A DNA stretch of 64,000 nt from Dehalococcoidia bacterium (lineage in GTDB: Bacteria; Chloroflexota; Dehalococcoidia; Lucifugimonadales; UBA3495), in assembly GCA_022827095.1 (NCBI GenBank), contig JAJDTP010000004.1:248001-312000 (forward strand), written 5' to 3'. Positions within the stretch are counted from its first letter, which is position 1. Every line of letters starts with the position of its first letter. The notes beneath the pieces are model-generated. The model had not been told where the DNA came from, searched no databases, and saw only the letters and a program-made list of their open reading frames with translations. Of the stretch, positions 855 to 16,335 are shown piece after piece. Both the position numbers and the translations under genes were made by a program.

Positions 855-2129
855 TTACTGGATGGGGCCGGGCGGTGACACCTGCTCCATCAGGTCGTTG
901 TCCCATTCGCCCTCAGCGACGAGGATAGCCTTGGCGTCGAACGCGAATGCCTCGACGAGATTGTGGGACAGGTAAACGTACGTTCCCGACTGGCGGATGG
1001 TGGAGATGGACGCGCCGGCGGACCCGGCGGCGATGACCCACGTCTCCAGGCCGGTTTCGGGCGCGTCGGAGAAGCTGCCACGCTCCCAGACGTAGTCGCC
1101 GTGTCCGCCGATCAGGTGGGGATAGGACTGCCGGTTGGCCTGGGAGTGGACGATGAGGACGTTGTCGCCCACGTTGGCGGTCAACTGTCCGTCGCCCTGG
1201 AGCGCGCCGGTGACGCCGTTGAACACGATGTGTGTTGGGACCAGCGTCTTCATCGCTTCCAGGTCGTCCACGGCTGATGCTGCGGCGCTGTCGTAGCGCT
1301 TGAACTCGCCACTCTCATACCGGGGGATGTAGTAATCCTGCTCACCCACGTAGTAGGCACGGTCATAAGTGATCGGGTTGCCGGCGGGGTCTTTCAGGCC
1401 GCCGCGAGGCAGCACCATGATGGCGCCGTTCATGCCGTGGGTGACGTGCCAGGGCACCATGGTTCCGCCGGGCGCGCAGTGGTAGATGAACACGCCCGGC
1501 TTCACCGCCCGGAAACGCAGCACCACCTCCTGGCCCGGGCCGACGTTGGTCAGCGCACCACCGCCTAGGGCGCCAATAGAAGCGTGGAAGTCGATGTTGT
1601 GCAGCAAAACGTTGCTGGCGGGATTGGCCAGGGTCAGTTCCACGTAGTCGCCCTCGTGAACCACGATCATGGGCCCGGGGACGGAGCCGTGGAACGTGAA
1701 GGCCCACATGAACACGCCGGGCGCGACCTCGATCTCCTTCTCCTCGATCTCCATGCGAACCTCAACGACTCGGGGTTCGCCGTCGTAAACCTGCTCGTGC
1801 TCGGGGAAGAAGGTCGGGGCCACCAGCTCCTGGGTCACCCGCTCCAGGGTGCTGACGTCCTCGGGTTCCCAGGTGCGCGGGCCTTCCCAGGTGGAGGGCA
1901 CGGTGGAAACCACGGCCTCGCTGCCGGCGCCGGGGGCCGGCGCTGCCTCGGGGCTGGGCAGGGCGGTGGGCAGGGAGAACTCCTGGGTCACCGCGGGCAT
2001 GCCCGGGTCGCGGCCGCAGGCGATGCTTGCCAGCAGCAGCAACGCCACTCCAAACAGCGCGATCTTGACGCCAGGGAAGGGTTTAACCCTCTGGCGCTCT
2101 ATCCGACGGTCAACATTGTGGCCTCGCAT
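855..2129 (-). CDS. nirK: Copper-containing nitrite reductase (NO-forming), lipoprotein form
   Basis: A 424-residue two-cupredoxin enzyme that reduces nitrite to nitric oxide outside the cytoplasmic membrane. Residues 21-38 form a hydrophobic signal ending in LASIAC, a good lipobox with Cys38, followed by a Pro/Ala-rich linker to about residue 90. The copper sites are intact: LLHNIDFH gives His177 (type 1), catalytic Asp180 and His182 (type 2); YHCAP gives His217 (type 2) and Cys218 (type 1); PWH228 and GMNGA Met233 complete type 1; PTHIVFNG supplies catalytic His300 and GGHGDYVW His343. The start at 2129 has GGGGGTGA just upstream. No other denitrification gene is in the window, so nitrite detoxification or partial denitrification is an inference. 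Confidence 0.93.
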
Positions 2130-2473
2130 TATTCACCCCCACTGGCCGGCCAGGTATTGTGCAGCCGGGCATCAGTAGTGGTTTAAATTGTACTCCTTGC
2201 ACATACGCATAGATTACGAAAAGCGCGAGTCAATAATTCACCATTTGCCTTATATATGCTTTGTTATGCACATAATGATAGGTGATAATGCTTTTTCAAC
2301 TTTCATGTTGTTGCGTGACGACCGGTCATTGCGCCGGGATCAAACCGTTGGCGTTGGATTGCGATTGGTGCGGTTCCGTCATTGCTGTCCGAATAGCCTC
2401 GCTCTGTGACGTAGCCTGAGCCCGGCAGGTGGACCATTGCCAGGTAGCTTACGCGCGAGATCGCGCTTGGCCC
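2130..2473. other. Intergenic stretch, AT-rich upstream of nirK
   Basis: No convincing gene lies here. About 2160-2320 is clearly AT-richer than the surroundings and should hold the nirK promoter on the minus strand. I looked for an FNR-type TTGAT-N4-ATCAA palindrome and did not find a convincing one. Confidence 0.5.
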
Positions 2474-4796: not shown

Positions 4797-5372
4797 ATGA
4801 CGACGCAAAACATCACCGCCGCGCCGCCGGTTACGCTGGCGGAGTATGCCGCGTTGCCAAAGTATCCGCGCTACGAACTGGTCAACGGAGTCCTGATTGA
4901 ACTGATGGTTGCGTCGGAAGAACACGAAGAAGCGGCGGCTCTAAACACCGCGACCTTGGTGCATCATGTCTATCCCAATCGCTTGGGCAAGGTGTACACC
5001 GGCAACCGGGGGTACGTTACCGGACCGGATTCTCCGGCCACGTCACGGATGCCCGACGTTTCGTTCGTGTCCAACGCACGGCTGGCGCAACCCGACCTGG
5101 CGGGAAAGCTCTACAACGGTGCGCCGGACCTCGCTGTGGAAATCCTGTCCGACAGCAATACGCTGGCGGAAATAGCCCAAAAGATCAGGGAATACCTGGA
5201 TGCCGGCGGCAGGGCCGTCTGGGTCATCGACATCGACGCCCGCACCCTGACGGTGCACCGACCCGGCGCGCCGGCGCTGGTTTTGACTGACGGCGATACC
5301 GTGGACGGAGAGGACTATTTGCCGGGTTTCACCTGCCCGGTGGCCGATATGCTGCCCCGGCTACATTCATGA
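4797..5372 (+). CDS. Uma2-family putative endonuclease, tandem copy 1
   Basis: A 191-residue Uma2 (DUF820) protein with a PD-(D/E)XK-like fold. The signature parts are YELVNGVLIELMVAS, SRMPDVSFVS, the acidic core PDLAVEILSDSN, and KIREYLDAGGRAVWVID. AGGAGG sits 8 nt before the ATG. Uma2 genes are greatly expanded in some bacteria, and their biological role is unsettled. The next gene is a close paralogue in the same orientation. Confidence 0.88.
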   Translation: MTTQNITAAPPVTLAEYAALPKYPRYELVNGVLIELMVASEEHEEAAALNTATLVHHVYPNRLGKVYTGNRGYVTGPDSPATSRMPDVSFVSNARLAQPDLAGKLYNGAPDLAVEILSDSNTLAEIAQKIREYLDAGGRAVWVIDIDARTLTVHRPGAPALVLTDGDTVDGEDYLPGFTCPVADMLPRLHS

Positions 5373-5404: not shown

Positions 5405-5980
5405 GTGACGACGCAACCAACCGCCGCCGCGCCGCCGGTTTCACTGAAAGAGTATGCTGCGCTGCCGAAGCATCCGCGCCATGAACTGGTGAAGGGAGTA
5501 TTGGTCGAGCTGATGGTTGCGTCGGAAGAACACGAACATACCGGATCGCTGGTCGTTATACGGGTCGGCAATCATGTCTTGCTCAATCGTTTGGGACGAG
5601 TGTACCTCAGCAACCGGGGCTATGTGACCGGCCCCGATTCTCCGGCCACATCACGAATGCCTGACGTTTCCTTTGTTTCCAACGCCCGATTGGATCAGCC
5701 GGACGTGGCAGGGATGCTCTACGACGGCGCACCGGACCTGGCCGTCGAAATACTTTCCGAGAGCAATACGCCAACCCAAATCGCCCAGAAGATCCGCGAA
5801 TATCTGGGCGCCGGCGGCAGGGCGGTCTGGGTAATCGATATCGACGCCCGCACGCTGACGGTGCATACCGCCGACGCGCCGCCGTTGGTTCTCACCGACG
5901 CCGGCACGGTGGACGGCGGGGACTACCTGCCCGGCTTCGCCTGCCCTGTGGAGGATCTGCTGCCGCTCCGAGCCGGCTAA
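5405..5980 (+). CDS. Uma2-family putative endonuclease, tandem copy 2
   Basis: A 191-residue protein nearly collinear with the preceding gene: the same length, the same SRMPDVSFVSNARL block and almost the same PDLAVEILS and KIREYL segments. A recent tandem duplication is therefore likely. It starts with GTG, preceded by GGAGG. The N-terminal half has diverged more (EHTGSLVVIRVGNHVLLNRLG against EAAALNTATLVHHVYPNRLG). Its stop codon overlaps by 4 nt the end of the converging HesB-related gene. Confidence 0.88.
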   Translation: MTTQPTAAAPPVSLKEYAALPKHPRHELVKGVLVELMVASEEHEHTGSLVVIRVGNHVLLNRLGRVYLSNRGYVTGPDSPATSRMPDVSFVSNARLDQPDVAGMLYDGAPDLAVEILSESNTPTQIAQKIREYLGAGGRAVWVIDIDARTLTVHTADAPPLVLTDAGTVDGGDYLPGFACPVEDLLPLRAG

Positions 5981-6306
5981 ACGAGGGAAGCGCGACGGCC
6001 CAGCGTGACGCCGTGGGGCAGCACGATGGTGGCCTTGAGGTTCCGAAAGAGCAGGAACCGGCTCATCGAGACGTCCACCTGCACGGCGTATTCCGCGATG
6101 CCCGGGGCCAGGTACAGGGTGATGTCGTCCTGGCTGGCGGGGTCGTAGGACTCCAGGCTGCGACGCCGGCGGACGTTGGTATCGACCGATACCTCTACGG
6201 AATCGCCGCTTCAACCCTTCCAGCAGATCAGGTCGACCACGGCCTGACCGCCCTTCTGGCGGATGAACTGGGCAGCTTCTGGGGTTATTTCAAGCTGTGT
6301 GGTCAT
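5977..6306 (-). CDS. HesB-related protein with in-frame UGA, candidate selenoprotein
   Basis: Reading from the ATG at 6306 through one UGA to the TAG at 5977 gives 110 codons in a single frame. The N-terminus ITPEAAQFIRQKGGQAVVD is that of A-type Fe-S carrier (HesB) relatives. The UGA is codon 32 (6211-6213), in the context DLICWKG-UGA-SGDSVEV, where relatives have a Cys- or Sec-containing loop. After it the frame still looks protein-like (DDITLYLAPGIAEY, VDVSMSRFLLFRNLKATIVL). A SECIS-like hairpin follows the UGA. I recall HesB-like selenoproteins as a described class. A nonsense mutation is the alternative, but 77 clean codons downstream argue against decay. The ATG lies 5 nt after the hicA stop, so it may be co-transcribed with hicBA. 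Confidence 0.68.
6178..6210 (-). promoter_or_regulatory. SECIS-like hairpin downstream of the UGA codon
   Basis: On the minus strand the sequence immediately after the UGA contains GGTATC-GGTC-GATACC (6193-6178). This is a perfect 6-bp stem, or 7 bp if the loop G-C closes, with a GGUC apical loop 23 nt after the UGA. Bacterial SECIS elements have a stem with a G-rich GGU-type loop roughly 16-37 nt after the Sec codon; E. coli fdhF has a GGUC loop. A lower GCGG/CCGC pairing is possible. Confidence 0.62.
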
Positions 6307-6311
6307 GTCGT

Positions 6312-6620
6312 TCACTCATCCAGAGGCTGCCCGTCCCACGGCGCGTCGGGATCAAGGTAGCGGCGGGGGATTTCGCCCCGGAGGGCGGCGCGGAACTCCT
6401 CGGCGCTGTTCATCTTCAACTGCTTGATGGCGATGTCACCCATCAACGTGGCGCCTATATCTTTATCACCGTGCGATACCATGGTCCACAATCTGATCCC
6501 GGACGACATTACTAACCATTCGTGATGAAAATAGGTATGATCACGGTTATCCTGCACAAATCTCATCCGATGGAGCAGGCGGCGTAGTTCACGGGTTTTG
6601 ACGTTGGCTATCCTCACCAT
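6312..6620 (-). CDS. hicA: HicA-like toxin
   Basis: A 102-residue protein with the small dsRBD-like HicA fold: TRELRRLLHRMRFVQDNRDHTYFHH carries the catalytic-type His in DHTYF, followed by SGIRLWTMVSHGDKDIGATLMGDIAIKQL, matching the HicA strand and C-terminal helix. HicA toxins cleave mRNA. The gene begins 2 nt after the hicB stop. It is somewhat longer than classical HicA, with an extra tail of about 20 residues (RGEIPRRYLDPDAPWDG). The UGA-containing gene starts 5 nt downstream. Confidence 0.7.
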   Translation of the reverse strand: MVRIANVKTRELRRLLHRMRFVQDNRDHTYFHHEWLVMSSGIRLWTMVSHGDKDIGATLMGDIAIKQLKMNSAEEFRAALRGEIPRRYLDPDAPWDGQPLDE

Positions 6621-6622
6621 CT

Positions 6623-6913
6623 TTATGCGAGCGTCGGCGCAATAGCAGGTTCAACCTGGAGCACCCAATGGGCGATACCTTCCGAGGCCAAATCAGCGAG
6701 CTTTTCCGTCAACTCGTCTTGAGCCGCCTGATCCGATTTGGCTACTCCGGGCATCCTTTCCAGAAAGCCAGCCATGGTAGCCGCCGCTTCAGCCAGGGCT
6801 TCGGCCTCAGTGTCGCCTTGACCGTGAGCATAATTGATAGCTGGGCAAACTGCGGCGTAGCACTTGGAACCGTCGGACAGATCATCCAGCCAGACAACGA
6901 CTTCGTATTCCAT
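6623..6913 (-). CDS. hicB: HicB-like antitoxin
   Basis: A 96-residue protein with a partial RNase H-like HicB fold: YEVVVWLDDLSDGSKCYAAVCPAINYAHGQGDTEAEALAEAAATMAGFLE. The strand-turn-strand, the G-x-T-xx-EA-x-xx-A motif and the following helix are typical. I see no obvious C-terminal DNA-binding domain. It lies directly upstream of the hicA-like gene in the hicB-hicA order found in many genomes. Confidence 0.72.
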   Translation of the reverse strand: MEYEVVVWLDDLSDGSKCYAAVCPAINYAHGQGDTEAEALAEAAATMAGFLERMPGVAKSDQAAQDELTEKLADLASEGIAHWVLQVEPAIAPTLA

Positions 6914-6953: not shown

Positions 6954-7556
6954 CTACGATGCTGTCGCCAACAGCAAGGAGTTCCGCGCTTCGATGGCCG
7001 CGGGATGAACCGCTGAACCTTTGTTTAACATGCGCACCACATTCCTGGTTAGGAACATGATCATGGCAGCCGGGAGGTCGTTCTCCGCCAACTCCTTGAG
7101 CTCTCCCTGCCAGGGGTAACGCTTGACCTTTACCGGGTCCAGCTTGTCGGCGAGGAACACGATGTGGGCGATGGGGTCTCCGCCGGTCGGGTCGCCGGTG
7201 GTGTGCCAGTAGATGGCGTTGTAGAGTTGAGCATGGCCCAGGCCGTCCTCGCGCTTGAGCAACTCCGCGCCCACCATGCCGTGCAGGATGGCCGGATTGC
7301 GGCGTTCGAACTCGGTGACCGGAGGCAGGTCGTACTCCTCCATGCGAAGGAGGTTCTCCAAGCCGGAGAAGTGCTTGGTGGCGTCGTGGGCCAGGCCGGT
7401 CAGGCCGATAGCTTCCACGTCCTGGCCATGTCGCTCGGCGAGGCCACGGGCGATCTGCTCCACGCGCTGGCAGTGCTCCTGGAGCCCGGGCGGCAAACGG
7501 CGGATCCGGCGGTGGATGCGGTCGACCACGCGGTCGGAGATTTCGATGGTGGTCAT
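6954..7556 (-). CDS. HD-domain phosphohydrolase, YqeK-like
   Basis: A 200-residue HD-superfamily protein. Metal-binding motifs appear in order: HCQRVEQIARGLAERHG, LAHDATKHF (the HD pair), ILHGMVGAELL, YNAIYWHTTGDP and FLADKLDPVKVKRY. This order and the ADKLDP block match YqeK, which splits diadenosine tetraphosphate symmetrically to ADP. The ATG at 7556 is chosen over an upstream in-frame start because it leads straight into the conserved helix. An unusual feature is a C-terminal extension of about 30 residues rich in small residues. Cytosolic function is expected. Confidence 0.78.
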   Translation of the reverse strand: MTTIEISDRVVDRIHRRIRRLPPGLQEHCQRVEQIARGLAERHGQDVEAIGLTGLAHDATKHFSGLENLLRMEEYDLPPVTEFERRNPAILHGMVGAELLKREDGLGHAQLYNAIYWHTTGDPTGGDPIAHIVFLADKLDPVKVKRYPWQGELKELAENDLPAAMIMFLTRNVVRMLNKGSAVHPAAIEARNSLLLATAS

Positions 7557-7602
7557 GGATGTTATCGTCCTCGTCTCTGCCCATTCAGGCAATTAGAGAT
7601 AC

Positions 7603-9507
7603 CTAAACTTCGCCAGCGTCAGAGTCCTCATCATCGTCATCACTTCCCGGCTCTACAACTTCGACACTGCTAAAGTCAACGTGCCACCGATTCTTTACCC
7701 ACGCAAGCAATTTGGATCGGCGTTCATTGATAGCCTCTACGGTCCAGTAATCGTACTGGGCAAGCTCCTGCTCTTGGAAAAACGGTGACTCCGCATAGCA
7801 GGGATATTTGGCGCCATTTGCACCCTTCTTTTCAGGAAACGGTTTGTTGCCAAGGGAGGAGTTGTGTTTGGTTAGCGTCAAGTTCCCGATGTCATGCATG
7901 TATATTTTGTGTGTGCTTTTATCGAAATGATTCTGCCAATAGGGCTGGTTTTCTATCGACTGCGGCAGTATGTGTTCAATCGTATCTTTGAGGCCCGTGC
8001 TGATGACGTCCGTCCAATTGATTTTAGGCGATGCGCCTTTGGCTGATGCCAAATCCTGTTCGTACTCGTACAGGAAATACCTGAGGCCCCTCCTCCCATA
8101 CCAGTCGCGAGGTGTCGTTACGTCTGTAAACTCGTCAAACCCACGCCTTTCGTCGCTGACGTTGTAAATCCGCTTGATGGTACGGGAGACATTATCAAAT
8201 TCCATCCCGTGATAAACACGGTTGGCGAGGCGAAACATATGCGATTGCCGGAAGGTGGCATAGTATCGTGCCACCGTATAGAAACGGAAAGCTAACGCTT
8301 CACAGAGTCGTACTACCTCAAGGTATTTTTGCGGCTCGGAAGGCCAGCGTGTTCGAACCGCCATCAGCAAAGGCAGGTAGGTTGCAGTTACTCCTATTCT
8401 GACCAGTTTGGAGTTCCAAAGTTTGACATCATCCCAGCGTCCTGGATGGGAAGAGAATGACTGGAATGCGTCGCTTCGGTCGGGATTGAGCGCATCGCAG
8501 TAACAGATGCTGGCCGACCGAAGGCCTTCTATGTACTGCTGTAACTCGCCAAGCAACTGGACAGATTGCCCATGATAATTCCGAAGATCGAATTTATCTT
8601 TGGTGCTTTTGCTTCCGTTCCAATTCCGTGATTGAGGGTCATATTGCATGAGCCAGTGCGCACGGAGCAACCTATCCTCATCCGCGGGCGAACTTAATCC
8701 GGCAGACATCAACTGATCCAGTATGTACGCCCATGCATCATTGACAGAATCCACAAAATTACTTTTGCTGCTTTCCTCCACATCGAGAGGCGAAGTAGCA
8801 TGCAGTAGGTAGTTCTTAACTTTCTCCAGGTCAGTCAATGGCTTGCCGCGGTCGTTCATCACTTCAAATATAGTACCGACTCCCGCCGCGTCCTCGACCT
8901 CGTACAGGTTGAAGTGGAGGCGACCCGTGATATTGCTCCGCAGCTCCCGCAGCCATTGCTCTCGATCTGCCGTACTGTCCACCGCAGAGGTCAGATAGTC
9001 GGCAATCTGCTTCTGGGAATTCTGGAGTCGTTGTGCCGAAGCTATAGGCGGCCCCACGACGTCCGGTTTCTCCCGCAGAACGACAGACTTGAAGAAATCA
9101 TCGGTGCCCTTGTTAAGCTTCATCTTATAGAGCGGCAGACCGTCACGGCTTGTCTGGACGTAGCTCCTCGCGGTCCCTTTGGCTAGAGCGTCGCTGTTTG
9201 GGTAATCACTCAGTGCCCGGCTTATTTCATTGAGCAACAGAACGATAGTCGTCAGACGTTGCTGTCCGTCCACTATGTCCCAAACCTCATAGCTCGTCCC
9301 TTCGTCATCCTCCACCTCGTCAGACTGGCTACAGAGCACAATAGTGCCTGTATAGTGACGATAGCCGGGACTGGAGGAGGCGAGCAGCCTAAGATCATCC
9401 AGAAATTCCGCGACTTGCCGCTCCTCCCACGCATAGCCACGTTGGTAGTCAGGAACCTGGAAGATCCGCTTGCTGAACAATTCTTGGAGAGACAGCGTGT
9501 TATTCAT
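7603..9507 (-). CDS. GmrSD-type DUF262/DUF1524 nuclease (phage-defence type)
   Basis: A 634-residue protein with an N-terminal DUF262 ParB-like domain: FQVPDYQRGYAW (about 16-27), WDIVDGQQRLTTI with the DGQQR motif, and FEVMNDRGKPLTDLEKVKNYLL. Its C-terminal DUF1524 His-Me nuclease domain has EHILPQS followed by HDIGNLTLTKHNSSLGNKPF. The two halves correspond to GmrS and GmrD, which together form a type IV restriction enzyme acting on modified phage DNA; single-chain versions are common. The gene is visibly AT-richer than its neighbours, suggesting transfer. The C-terminus is strongly acidic (DDDDEDSDAGEV). Specificity cannot be told from sequence. Confidence 0.85.
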   Translation of the reverse strand: MNNTLSLQELFSKRIFQVPDYQRGYAWEERQVAEFLDDLRLLASSSPGYRHYTGTIVLCSQSDEVEDDEGTSYEVWDIVDGQQRLTTIVLLLNEISRALSDYPNSDALAKGTARSYVQTSRDGLPLYKMKLNKGTDDFFKSVVLREKPDVVGPPIASAQRLQNSQKQIADYLTSAVDSTADREQWLRELRSNITGRLHFNLYEVEDAAGVGTIFEVMNDRGKPLTDLEKVKNYLLHATSPLDVEESSKSNFVDSVNDAWAYILDQLMSAGLSSPADEDRLLRAHWLMQYDPQSRNWNGSKSTKDKFDLRNYHGQSVQLLGELQQYIEGLRSASICYCDALNPDRSDAFQSFSSHPGRWDDVKLWNSKLVRIGVTATYLPLLMAVRTRWPSEPQKYLEVVRLCEALAFRFYTVARYYATFRQSHMFRLANRVYHGMEFDNVSRTIKRIYNVSDERRGFDEFTDVTTPRDWYGRRGLRYFLYEYEQDLASAKGASPKINWTDVISTGLKDTIEHILPQSIENQPYWQNHFDKSTHKIYMHDIGNLTLTKHNSSLGNKPFPEKKGANGAKYPCYAESPFFQEQELAQYDYWTVEAINERRSKLLAWVKNRWHVDFSSVEVVEPGSDDDDEDSDAGEV

Positions 9508-9592: not shown

Positions 9593-9949
9593 TCAGCCCA
9601 TCTCTCCCAGGCCGCGGCCGCCCAGCAGGTGCATGTGGGGCCAGGCGATGGTCTGGCCGGCGTCCTCGCCGTTGTTGACCACCAGGCGGTAGCCGCTGAT
9701 GGTGACGCCCTCGCGCCGTGCCATCTCGGCGGCCACCACGAACAGGTGCCCCATGGTGGCCTCCATGGCGGGGCTGATGTAATCGAGGCCGTTGATGGGC
9801 ATGTTGGGGATGATCAGCAGGTGCACGGGCGCTTTGGGGTTGATGTCGCGCACCACGAAGCAACGCTCGTCCCGGTAGATCACGTCGGGATGCAGCGGGT
9901 CGCGGGCCATGGCGGCGAAGGGCGAACTGCGGGCGGGGGTCATGGTCAT
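9593..9949 (-). CDS. HIT-family nucleotide hydrolase/transferase
   Basis: A 118-residue histidine-triad protein of the HINT branch. It has the phosphate-binding strand VRDINPKAPVHLLIIPN, the GYRLVVNNGEDAGQTI segment and the triad region AWPHMHLLGGR. In the canonical H-x-H-x-H motif the first His is replaced here by Trp, while the middle His, which forms the nucleotidyl intermediate in this family, and the last His are kept. Likely activity is hydrolysis of nucleotide phosphoramidates or related bonds. It is transcribed away from the repeat at 10015. Confidence 0.86.
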   Translation of the reverse strand: MTMTPARSSPFAAMARDPLHPDVIYRDERCFVVRDINPKAPVHLLIIPNMPINGLDYISPAMEATMGHLFVVAAEMARREGVTISGYRLVVNNGEDAGQTIAWPHMHLLGGRGLGEMG

Positions 9950-10130: not shown

Positions 10131-11270
10131 TTACCCCGCCTCAATCTCCTGCAACGCCACTTCCTTGTGGTCGTGGACGCTGCCGTAGGAGAGTTCCTGC
10201 ACCTTGGCGCGGCGCGTGTAGAGCTGGAGGTTGTGCTCCTGGGTGAAGCCGATGGCACCGTGGCACTGGTGGCCCAGGGAGCAGACCCGCTGGTAGGCTC
10301 CGCTGCACCAGGCCTTGGCGATGGCAACCTCACGCCGGGCAGACTGGCCCTCGGCCAGGGCCCAGGCGGCCTGGTAGGCCACGTGGCGCGCGCCCTCGAC
10401 GTCGGTGGCCATGTTGGAGCAGTGGTGCTGCACGGCCTGGAAACTTCCCACCGGCCGGCCGAACTGGGTCCGCTGCTTGACGTACTCGACGGTCATGTCG
10501 ACCACGGCCTCGGCTCCGCCCACCATCTGCACGCAGTGGGCTGCCGTCGCCCGCGCCAGCGCGCGCTCAATGACCGGCCAGGCCTGTCCAACCTCGCCGA
10601 GCACGGAGCCGGCGCCCACGGAGACGTTGTTCAGCCGGATCTCGCAGAGCCGCTCGTTGCCGATGGTGCTGATCTGCTCAATCTCGACGCCGGCCGCGTT
10701 GGAGGGCACCAGGAACAGGGTGATGCCCTGCTCGGGGTTGTCGCCGGCCGGCATGGTGCGGGCCGCCACGATGATGGTGTCGGCGGCGTGGGCGTCCTGG
10801 ACAAACAGCTTGGTGCCGCTGATGCTGTAGCCGTCGCCCGACGCGCTGGCCTGGGTCTCAACGCCCCACGCCTCGGTGGTGGCCGACGGCTCGGTGAGGG
10901 CCAGCGTGAGGCGGATGGTGCCGGCGCAGACGCCGGTGAGGATGTCGCGCTTCTGGTCGTCGTTGCCGGCGTCCAGCACGGTGAGCCCGCCCAGCACCAC
11001 GGTGGCGAAGAAAGGAGCCGGCAACAGCGCGCGTCCCATCTCCTCAACCAGCACGGCCAAGTCCAGGAAGGAACCGCCGGTGCCGCCGTACTGCTCGGGG
11101 AAGGGGATGCCGGTCCAGCCCAGGTTGGCCACCTGACGCCACAGGTCTTCGCTGAAGCCCTGCGGATCGTCTTCCAGTTCGCGCACCAGCGTGAGCGGGC
11201 ATTCCTGCGCCAGGAATTCGCGCGCCGAGTTCTTCAGCATCTGCTGAATCTCGCTGAGTCCCATGTCCAT
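10131..11270 (-). CDS. Acyl-CoA dehydrogenase
   Basis: A 379-residue flavoprotein of the acyl-CoA dehydrogenase superfamily. In order it shows the N-terminal helical domain with GWTGIPFPEQYGGTGGSFLDL, the middle beta-domain with LTLALTEPSATTEAWGV and SGTKLFVQDAHAAD, and a C-terminal helical domain with VQMVGGAEAVVDMTVEYVKQR, QFGRPVGSFQAVQHHCSNM and GAIGFTQEHNLQLYTRRAK. Such enzymes introduce a 2,3 double bond into an acyl-CoA and pass electrons to ETF. The chain-length preference is not evident, and the catalytic base was not assigned. It stands alone, with a repeat just downstream. Confidence 0.92.
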   Translation of the reverse strand: MDMGLSEIQQMLKNSAREFLAQECPLTLVRELEDDPQGFSEDLWRQVANLGWTGIPFPEQYGGTGGSFLDLAVLVEEMGRALLPAPFFATVVLGGLTVLDAGNDDQKRDILTGVCAGTIRLTLALTEPSATTEAWGVETQASASGDGYSISGTKLFVQDAHAADTIIVAARTMPAGDNPEQGITLFLVPSNAAGVEIEQISTIGNERLCEIRLNNVSVGAGSVLGEVGQAWPVIERALARATAAHCVQMVGGAEAVVDMTVEYVKQRTQFGRPVGSFQAVQHHCSNMATDVEGARHVAYQAAWALAEGQSARREVAIAKAWCSGAYQRVCSLGHQCHGAIGFTQEHNLQLYTRRAKVQELSYGSVHDHKEVALQEIEAG

Positions 11271-15558: not shown

Positions 15559-15585
15559 CCAGGCAATAAGCGAAAAGTGAATATA

Positions 15586-16335
15586 ATGCCAAGTCTCCTC
15601 AACATCGCACTGAACTTTCTCGCCGGACGTGACCGGGAGGGTTACGATAAAGCCGGCTATGATCGTTTGGGGTATGATCGGGAGGGCTATTCGCGCTCGG
15701 GCCGTGACCGAGAGGGCTACGACAAGGCAGGTTATGACCGATACAGATATGACCGGAAAGGCTATGGCCGTCTAGGTTTCAATAGATCCGGCCTTCATCG
15801 CAACGGTACGCACTTCGATGACAATGGCTACGACGTATGGGGCCGTGATCGAAAAGGCTTTGATAAGCATGGCTATGACACAGACGGCTACAATCGACGG
15901 GGTTACAACCGGAAAGGGTATGACCGACGAGGCTATGACCGGAAAGGGTATAACAGGCATGGCTACGACGCAGGTGGCTACGATCGACGGGGCTACGACC
16001 GAAAGGGTTATAACCGACGGGGATTCAATCTCATTGGTCTTCATAGCAACGGTACATATTATGATGCTAGCGGTTGTGACTGGCACGGTCATCTTGGCCA
16101 TGAACTAGACTTGCACGGATATCGGGTTTCGGAAGCCCTTGCCGCAGTCGACAATGCGCTTATATCCGCCAAACGCAATGAGTGGAAATCCATCGCCATC
16201 ATTCATGGCAAAGGCACGGGAACGCTCAGGGACATGGTTCGTGGACATCTGGCGCAACACCCGCTTGTTCAGAATTGGTGGCCGCACGAGATTGCCTCAC
16301 GATCCGACGGCGAAGTATTTGTTGTTTTAGATTGA
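15586..16335 (+). CDS. GYDRx pentapeptide-repeat protein with C-terminal Smr domain
   Basis: A 249-residue protein (252 if the GTG at 15577 is used). Residues about 15-165 are about 28 tandem pentads of the form G-Y/F-D/N-R/K-x, interrupted twice by a longer unit, G-F-N-x-x-GLH-x-NGT-x-(F/Y)D. The rest is a Smr domain: ELDLHGYRVSEAL (the LDxHG motif) and SIAIIHGKGTGTLRDMVRGHL (the HGKGxGxLR motif). Smr domains are DNA/RNA nicking nucleases or ribosome-collision endonucleases. The repeats could be an elongated scaffold or nucleic-acid-binding fiber. It lies 27 nt after the DUF4276 gene on the same strand, probably in one operon. Confidence 0.8.
   Translation: MPSLLNIALNFLAGRDREGYDKAGYDRLGYDREGYSRSGRDREGYDKAGYDRYRYDRKGYGRLGFNRSGLHRNGTHFDDNGYDVWGRDRKGFDKHGYDTDGYNRRGYNRKGYDRRGYDRKGYNRHGYDAGGYDRRGYDRKGYNRRGFNLIGLHSNGTYYDASGCDWHGHLGHELDLHGYRVSEALAAVDNALISAKRNEWKSIAIIHGKGTGTLRDMVRGHLAQHPLVQNWWPHEIASRSDGEVFVVLD

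Follow-up and report, generated by a model that had tools for sequence, protein, structure and literature searches.

A predicted selenoprotein gene split by an in-frame UGA

A minus-strand gene in the window (the whole 64,000-nucleotide stretch of a Dehalococcoidia genome analysed here) almost certainly encodes a real selenoprotein of the catalogued, functionally uncharacterised family NF041239, judging from comparison with its homologues. We put the probability that positions 6306-5977 are correctly read as a selenoprotein at roughly 93%. The first-pass annotation had described a 330-bp frame that starts with an ATG at 6306, meets UGA at codon 32 (6213-6211) and continues for 77 codons to a TAG. 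Translation bears this out, giving MTTQLEITPEAAQFIRQKGGQAVVDLICWKG-U-SGDSVEVSVDTN...RRASLV, followed by TAG. As that annotation had also anticipated, standard gene calling misses the frame: the ordinary open reading frame (ORF) list splits the gene and does not contain 6306-5977. The gene, its predicted recoding elements and its conserved neighbours are given in Table 1.

Table 1. Features at the selenoprotein locus (window coordinates).
Feature	Position	Strand	Remarks
Predicted selenoprotein gene, NF041239 family	5977..6306	-	109 aa, ATG start, TAG stop
In-frame UGA, codon 32, putatively read as selenocysteine	6211..6213	-	TGA column in homologues; Cys in L095, L096
Predicted apical hairpin of bacterial SECIS, GGUAUC-GGUC-GAUACC	6178..6193	-	encodes EVSVDT; comparative evidence
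Small ORF resembling HicA	6312..6620	-	by eye; stop TGA, 5 nt before selenoprotein ATG
Small ORF resembling HicB	6623..6913	-	by eye
YqeK, HD-domain symmetrical Ap4A hydrolase	6954..7592	-	TIGR00488 above cut-off; conserved upstream neighbour
HIT-family protein (HinT-like)	9593..9949	-	conserved upstream neighbour
Acyl-CoA dehydrogenase	10131..11270	-	outer member of conserved gene order

Family assignment

The window protein scores 47 bits against NF041239 (cut-off 40, hmmscan), and the same profile is matched by all 33 aligned relatives. NF041239, the "CC/Se motif (seleno)protein" family (hypothetical protein of Moorella thermoacetica), is listed in a 2026 review as a predicted selenoprotein with the motif CxxU, apart from the HesB-like family TIGR01911 with the motif UxGP (PMC13188914). 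Sources differ on the name-giving motif, which is CxxU in the review and adjacent Cys-Cys/Sec according to the family name; the window protein has CxxxU, with the Cys at -4, and many relatives lack this Cys.

No match to TIGR01911 was found by hmmscan at E<=1, either for the window protein or for any of the 33 aligned members. The two groups are alike in being small HesB-related proteins in which xG follows the one Sec, and differ in that the TIGR01911 motif is UxGP and that of the window group UxG[D/E]. The earlier statement that HesB-like selenoproteins form an established class is correct and refers to TIGR01911, although the window protein lies outside it. Its description as HesB-related stands at the superfamily level, on the fold search and profile alignment described below and on weak PF01521 matches in 11 of the 33 family members. 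It does not stand as membership of PF01521 or TIGR01911: the window protein matches neither PF01521 nor any other Pfam entry, and belongs to NF041239.

NF041239 is already catalogued as a predicted selenoprotein family. What appears to be new, from the sequences compared here, is that the partner Cys is not conserved in the group and that the gene lies downstream of HIT and YqeK genes at about 85% of loci. For this uncharacterised family the analysis also supplies a conserved gene neighbourhood, a predicted fold and the place of the active site within it.

Predicted fold and the position of selenocysteine

An AlphaFold2 model of the window protein, with a 33-row alignment, reached a pLDDT of 81, with low values around the Sec loop. 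A fold search with this model recovered SufA (Z 8.9; 86 residues superposed at an rmsd of 2.8), IscA (7.8) and DsrR (7.4), and the first chain that is not of the A type followed at 2.8. Alignment by hhalign against 15 HesB proteins (E 3.8e-5, probability 71%) placed Sec32 over the HesB Cys (KG-U-SG over GG-C-SG). A profile search against PDB sequences returned marginal matches only, to DsrR and Gp7 (E 1.2). The model makes a HesB/IscA/SufA-type fold very likely for the window protein, and supports a predicted location of Sec at the end of a flexible loop, at the position of Cys35 in IscA.

The ligands of IscA are Cys35 and a C-terminal CxC. Of these three cluster ligands only the first position is kept in the window protein, as Sec, and the C-terminus reads LGRRASLV. 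The protein is similar to the A-type carriers IscA, SufA and HesB (PF01521) and to DsrR in its predicted fold and in the position of Sec/Cys, but differs in having no C-terminal CxC, no PF01521 match and another gene neighbourhood. The Cys at -4 (CWKGU in the window) is replaced in relatives, which read SFTSU, MSSU, QHSSU or PPLTU, and Sec is the sole conserved thiol-like residue in the alignment.

A selenoprotein that, like IscA, is a genuine Fe-S cluster carrier and binds the cluster through Sec would account for the fold and for the Cys35 position. We consider this alternative to a redox or metal role unlikely, since the C-terminal CxC is missing, the family conserves no further Cys, and the genome has separate HesB genes, of which the one at L001 retains all ligands. 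The absence of both the C-terminal Cys ligands and a second conserved Cys makes an ordinary Fe-S scaffold an improbable role for the window protein. Redox or soft-metal chemistry at its lone selenolate, perhaps in a dimer, would be the most likely use; we give such a redox or metal role about even odds.

Coding through the UGA

Homologues were taken from species genomes and from 50 genomes of the taxonomic family to which the window belongs. The family-level search reads through stops and merely counts them, and so is unbiased towards UGA. It returned 32 matches in 31 of the 50 genomes, all with exactly one TGA, and no Cys form among them. In the alignment of 34 distinct homologous frames, whose identity to the window protein is about 31-98%, the TGA falls at one column in every case, far more than chance would produce. 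Median dN/dS in the close clade (Nei-Gojobori) is 0.15 before the UGA and 0.18 after it, and pooled pN/pS is 0.23 and 0.26, respectively. The similar dN/dS on both sides, together with the single TGA column, indicates that the part after the UGA is translated in the same frame.

Cys occupies the place of Sec in two distant relatives from other Chloroflexota genomes (L095 and L096, ...HRCC-G...), in which the second Cys replaces Sec; the sequence L097 reads ...RC-U-SG. The Cys homologues are few and distant. The first-pass annotation had proposed an alignment around the UGA, and had named homologues that end there or carry an unrelated residue as evidence against Sec. Neither kind was found: the aligned homologues have the UGA at this codon (34/34), and the Cys homologues L095 and L096 have Cys in its place. 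A phylum-wide search with the window protein recovered its own genome only; the relatives came from the family-level and NF041239 searches. Protein and profile searches of viral contigs found no relatives, and none were found in plasmids.

Were the UGA a true stop, the product would be a peptide of 31 residues, and a separate gene would follow; a TTG-started ORF in another frame does begin beside it. This arrangement is very improbable, because no start codon in the same frame is conserved close behind the UGA in the alignment, the NF041239 profile and the IscA fold cover the whole protein, and the Cys variants L095 and L096 run through in one frame. A pseudogene or assembly error, in which a once-intact gene is stopped by UGA, would agree with the split in the standard ORF listing, but is ruled out for practical purposes by conservation across genomes: 34 distinct sequences, assembled independently, share this UGA, and purifying selection acts on the codons before and after it.

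Two of the loci, L059 and L058, carry a tandem second selenoprotein copy, at 1856-2248 (+) and at 1947-2339 (reverse-complement coordinates), respectively. In these copies the UGA lies in a CLD[HK]-U motif (CLDHU or CLDKU), the C-terminus is longer, and the GGTATC hairpin sequence is absent.

A candidate SECIS hairpin within the coding sequence

A hairpin had been named earlier as part of the evidence, without coordinates; we located it at 6193-6178, and its support is comparative rather than derived from folding energy. With its GGUC loop, 6-bp stem and a distance of 23 nt from the UGA to the loop, it agrees in loop, stem, G position and spacing with the bacterial SECIS model, which has an apical loop of 3-9 nt with a G in its first two positions, a stem of 4-16 bp and a spacing of 16-37 nt from the UGA (PMC13188914). 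Taken by itself, the window sequence has an unremarkable folding energy (z -0.68 in single-sequence folding), and an Rfam search of positions 5900-6400 gave no match. Because single-sequence folding is not significant, the SECIS argument rests on comparison.

In the homologue alignment the pairing is intact in 99.6% of cells, and slid pairings lower the share of paired cells to 20-53%. The observed covariation score was reached by none of 500 shuffles. The innermost (apical) pair is G-C, C-G or A-U. The codons for Val39 and Asp42 covary, with all changes silent: GTA occurs with GAT (n=29) and GTG with GAC (n=5), with no mixed combinations (n=0), where the counts are of related sequences and not of independent events. 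The codons of the EVSVDT stretch are frozen: their mean top-codon share is 0.93, compared with 0.59 for the remaining conserved residues (p 0.0005). The Cys forms L095 and L096 do not have the hairpin sequence. The hairpin offers a clean comparative case of a SECIS element freezing synonymous codons within a coding stretch, with silent compensatory changes.

SelB-dependent insertion of Sec at codon 32 is strongly supported by these comparisons. In this mechanism, SelB-GTP carrying Sec-tRNA(Sec) would bind the hairpin directly downstream of the UGA, delivering selenocysteine at codon 32, and the ribosome would then continue to the TAG.

Selenocysteine machinery

The first-pass annotation had suggested a search for selA, selB, selC and selD, and held that a genome with no Sec machinery would count against its reading. 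All four are present, the genome encoding tRNA-Sec (anticodon UCA), SelA, SelB and SelD. In the taxonomic family, SelB scores above cut-off in 28 of the 31 genomes that bear the gene, and the remaining three genomes are 73-85% complete. Since almost every genome of this family has SelB, its co-occurrence with the gene is consistent with Sec insertion but not discriminating. SelB is also found in one Cys-form genome, so the use of Sec or Cys does not simply track the machinery. General reassignment of UGA in this genome (for example to Trp or Gly) is extremely improbable: we found no support for it, within the window the HIT gene, a Uma2 gene and the HicA-like ORF all end in UGA, and the UCA anticodon that was found belongs to tRNA-Sec.

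The SelD of the same genome (L038, G000:C20:25694-26614) is itself a selenoprotein candidate, with its own UGA in the context CAG-U-AAK. A hairpin (GGACCU-GGGUC-AGGUCC) follows the UGA of this selD gene and resembles the window hairpin in its GGU loop.

Lineage and gene neighbourhood

One relative (L012) is from SAR202 bin87 of the sponge Aplysina aerophoba. SelA and SelB are reported to be enriched in sponge symbionts, their substrates going unnamed in the part of that source drawn on here (PMC5649159). In the literature on SAR202 selenoproteins we found no description of the present gene. The reading proposed here would correct a gene split by standard annotation in a lineage whose sponge symbionts are, according to the same part of that source, enriched in SelA and SelB (PMC5649159).

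Of 36 loci, 31 have YqeK upstream of the selenoprotein gene and 30 have HIT there, and these include loci where the selenoprotein is only about 40% identical; as the flanks of many loci extend for only 1.5 kb, both counts are minimum values. In the genus to which the window belongs, YqeK is separated from the selenoprotein gene by the HicA- and HicB-like ORFs. Neither of these ORFs in the window has a Pfam or NCBIfam match, and in most close loci a homologue of the HicA-like one occupies the corresponding position.

From gene order, we infer that the process served by the selenoprotein may be linked to the adjacent HIT and YqeK nucleotide hydrolases. The fuller proposal, of an obligate-Sec protein with an IscA fold and a lone selenolate without partner Cys that works with the HIT and YqeK hydrolases, is speculative and, taken as a whole, quite doubtful. 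If true, it would point to a selenium-based redox or metal sensor or regulator in the dinucleotide-polyphosphate metabolism of SAR202-type sponge symbionts.

Several other genes of the window were noted. A GmrSD-type restriction gene (7603-9507, minus strand) lies between HIT and YqeK; it looks inserted, because HIT and YqeK are directly adjacent in several relatives. On the other side of the selenoprotein gene are tandem Uma2-family genes (4797-5372 and 5405-5980, plus strand), the second of which converges on it with a 4-base overlap. Farther away, an ORF at 15577-16335 (plus strand) encodes many GYDRxGY-type repeats, followed by an apparent Smr-like C-terminal part.
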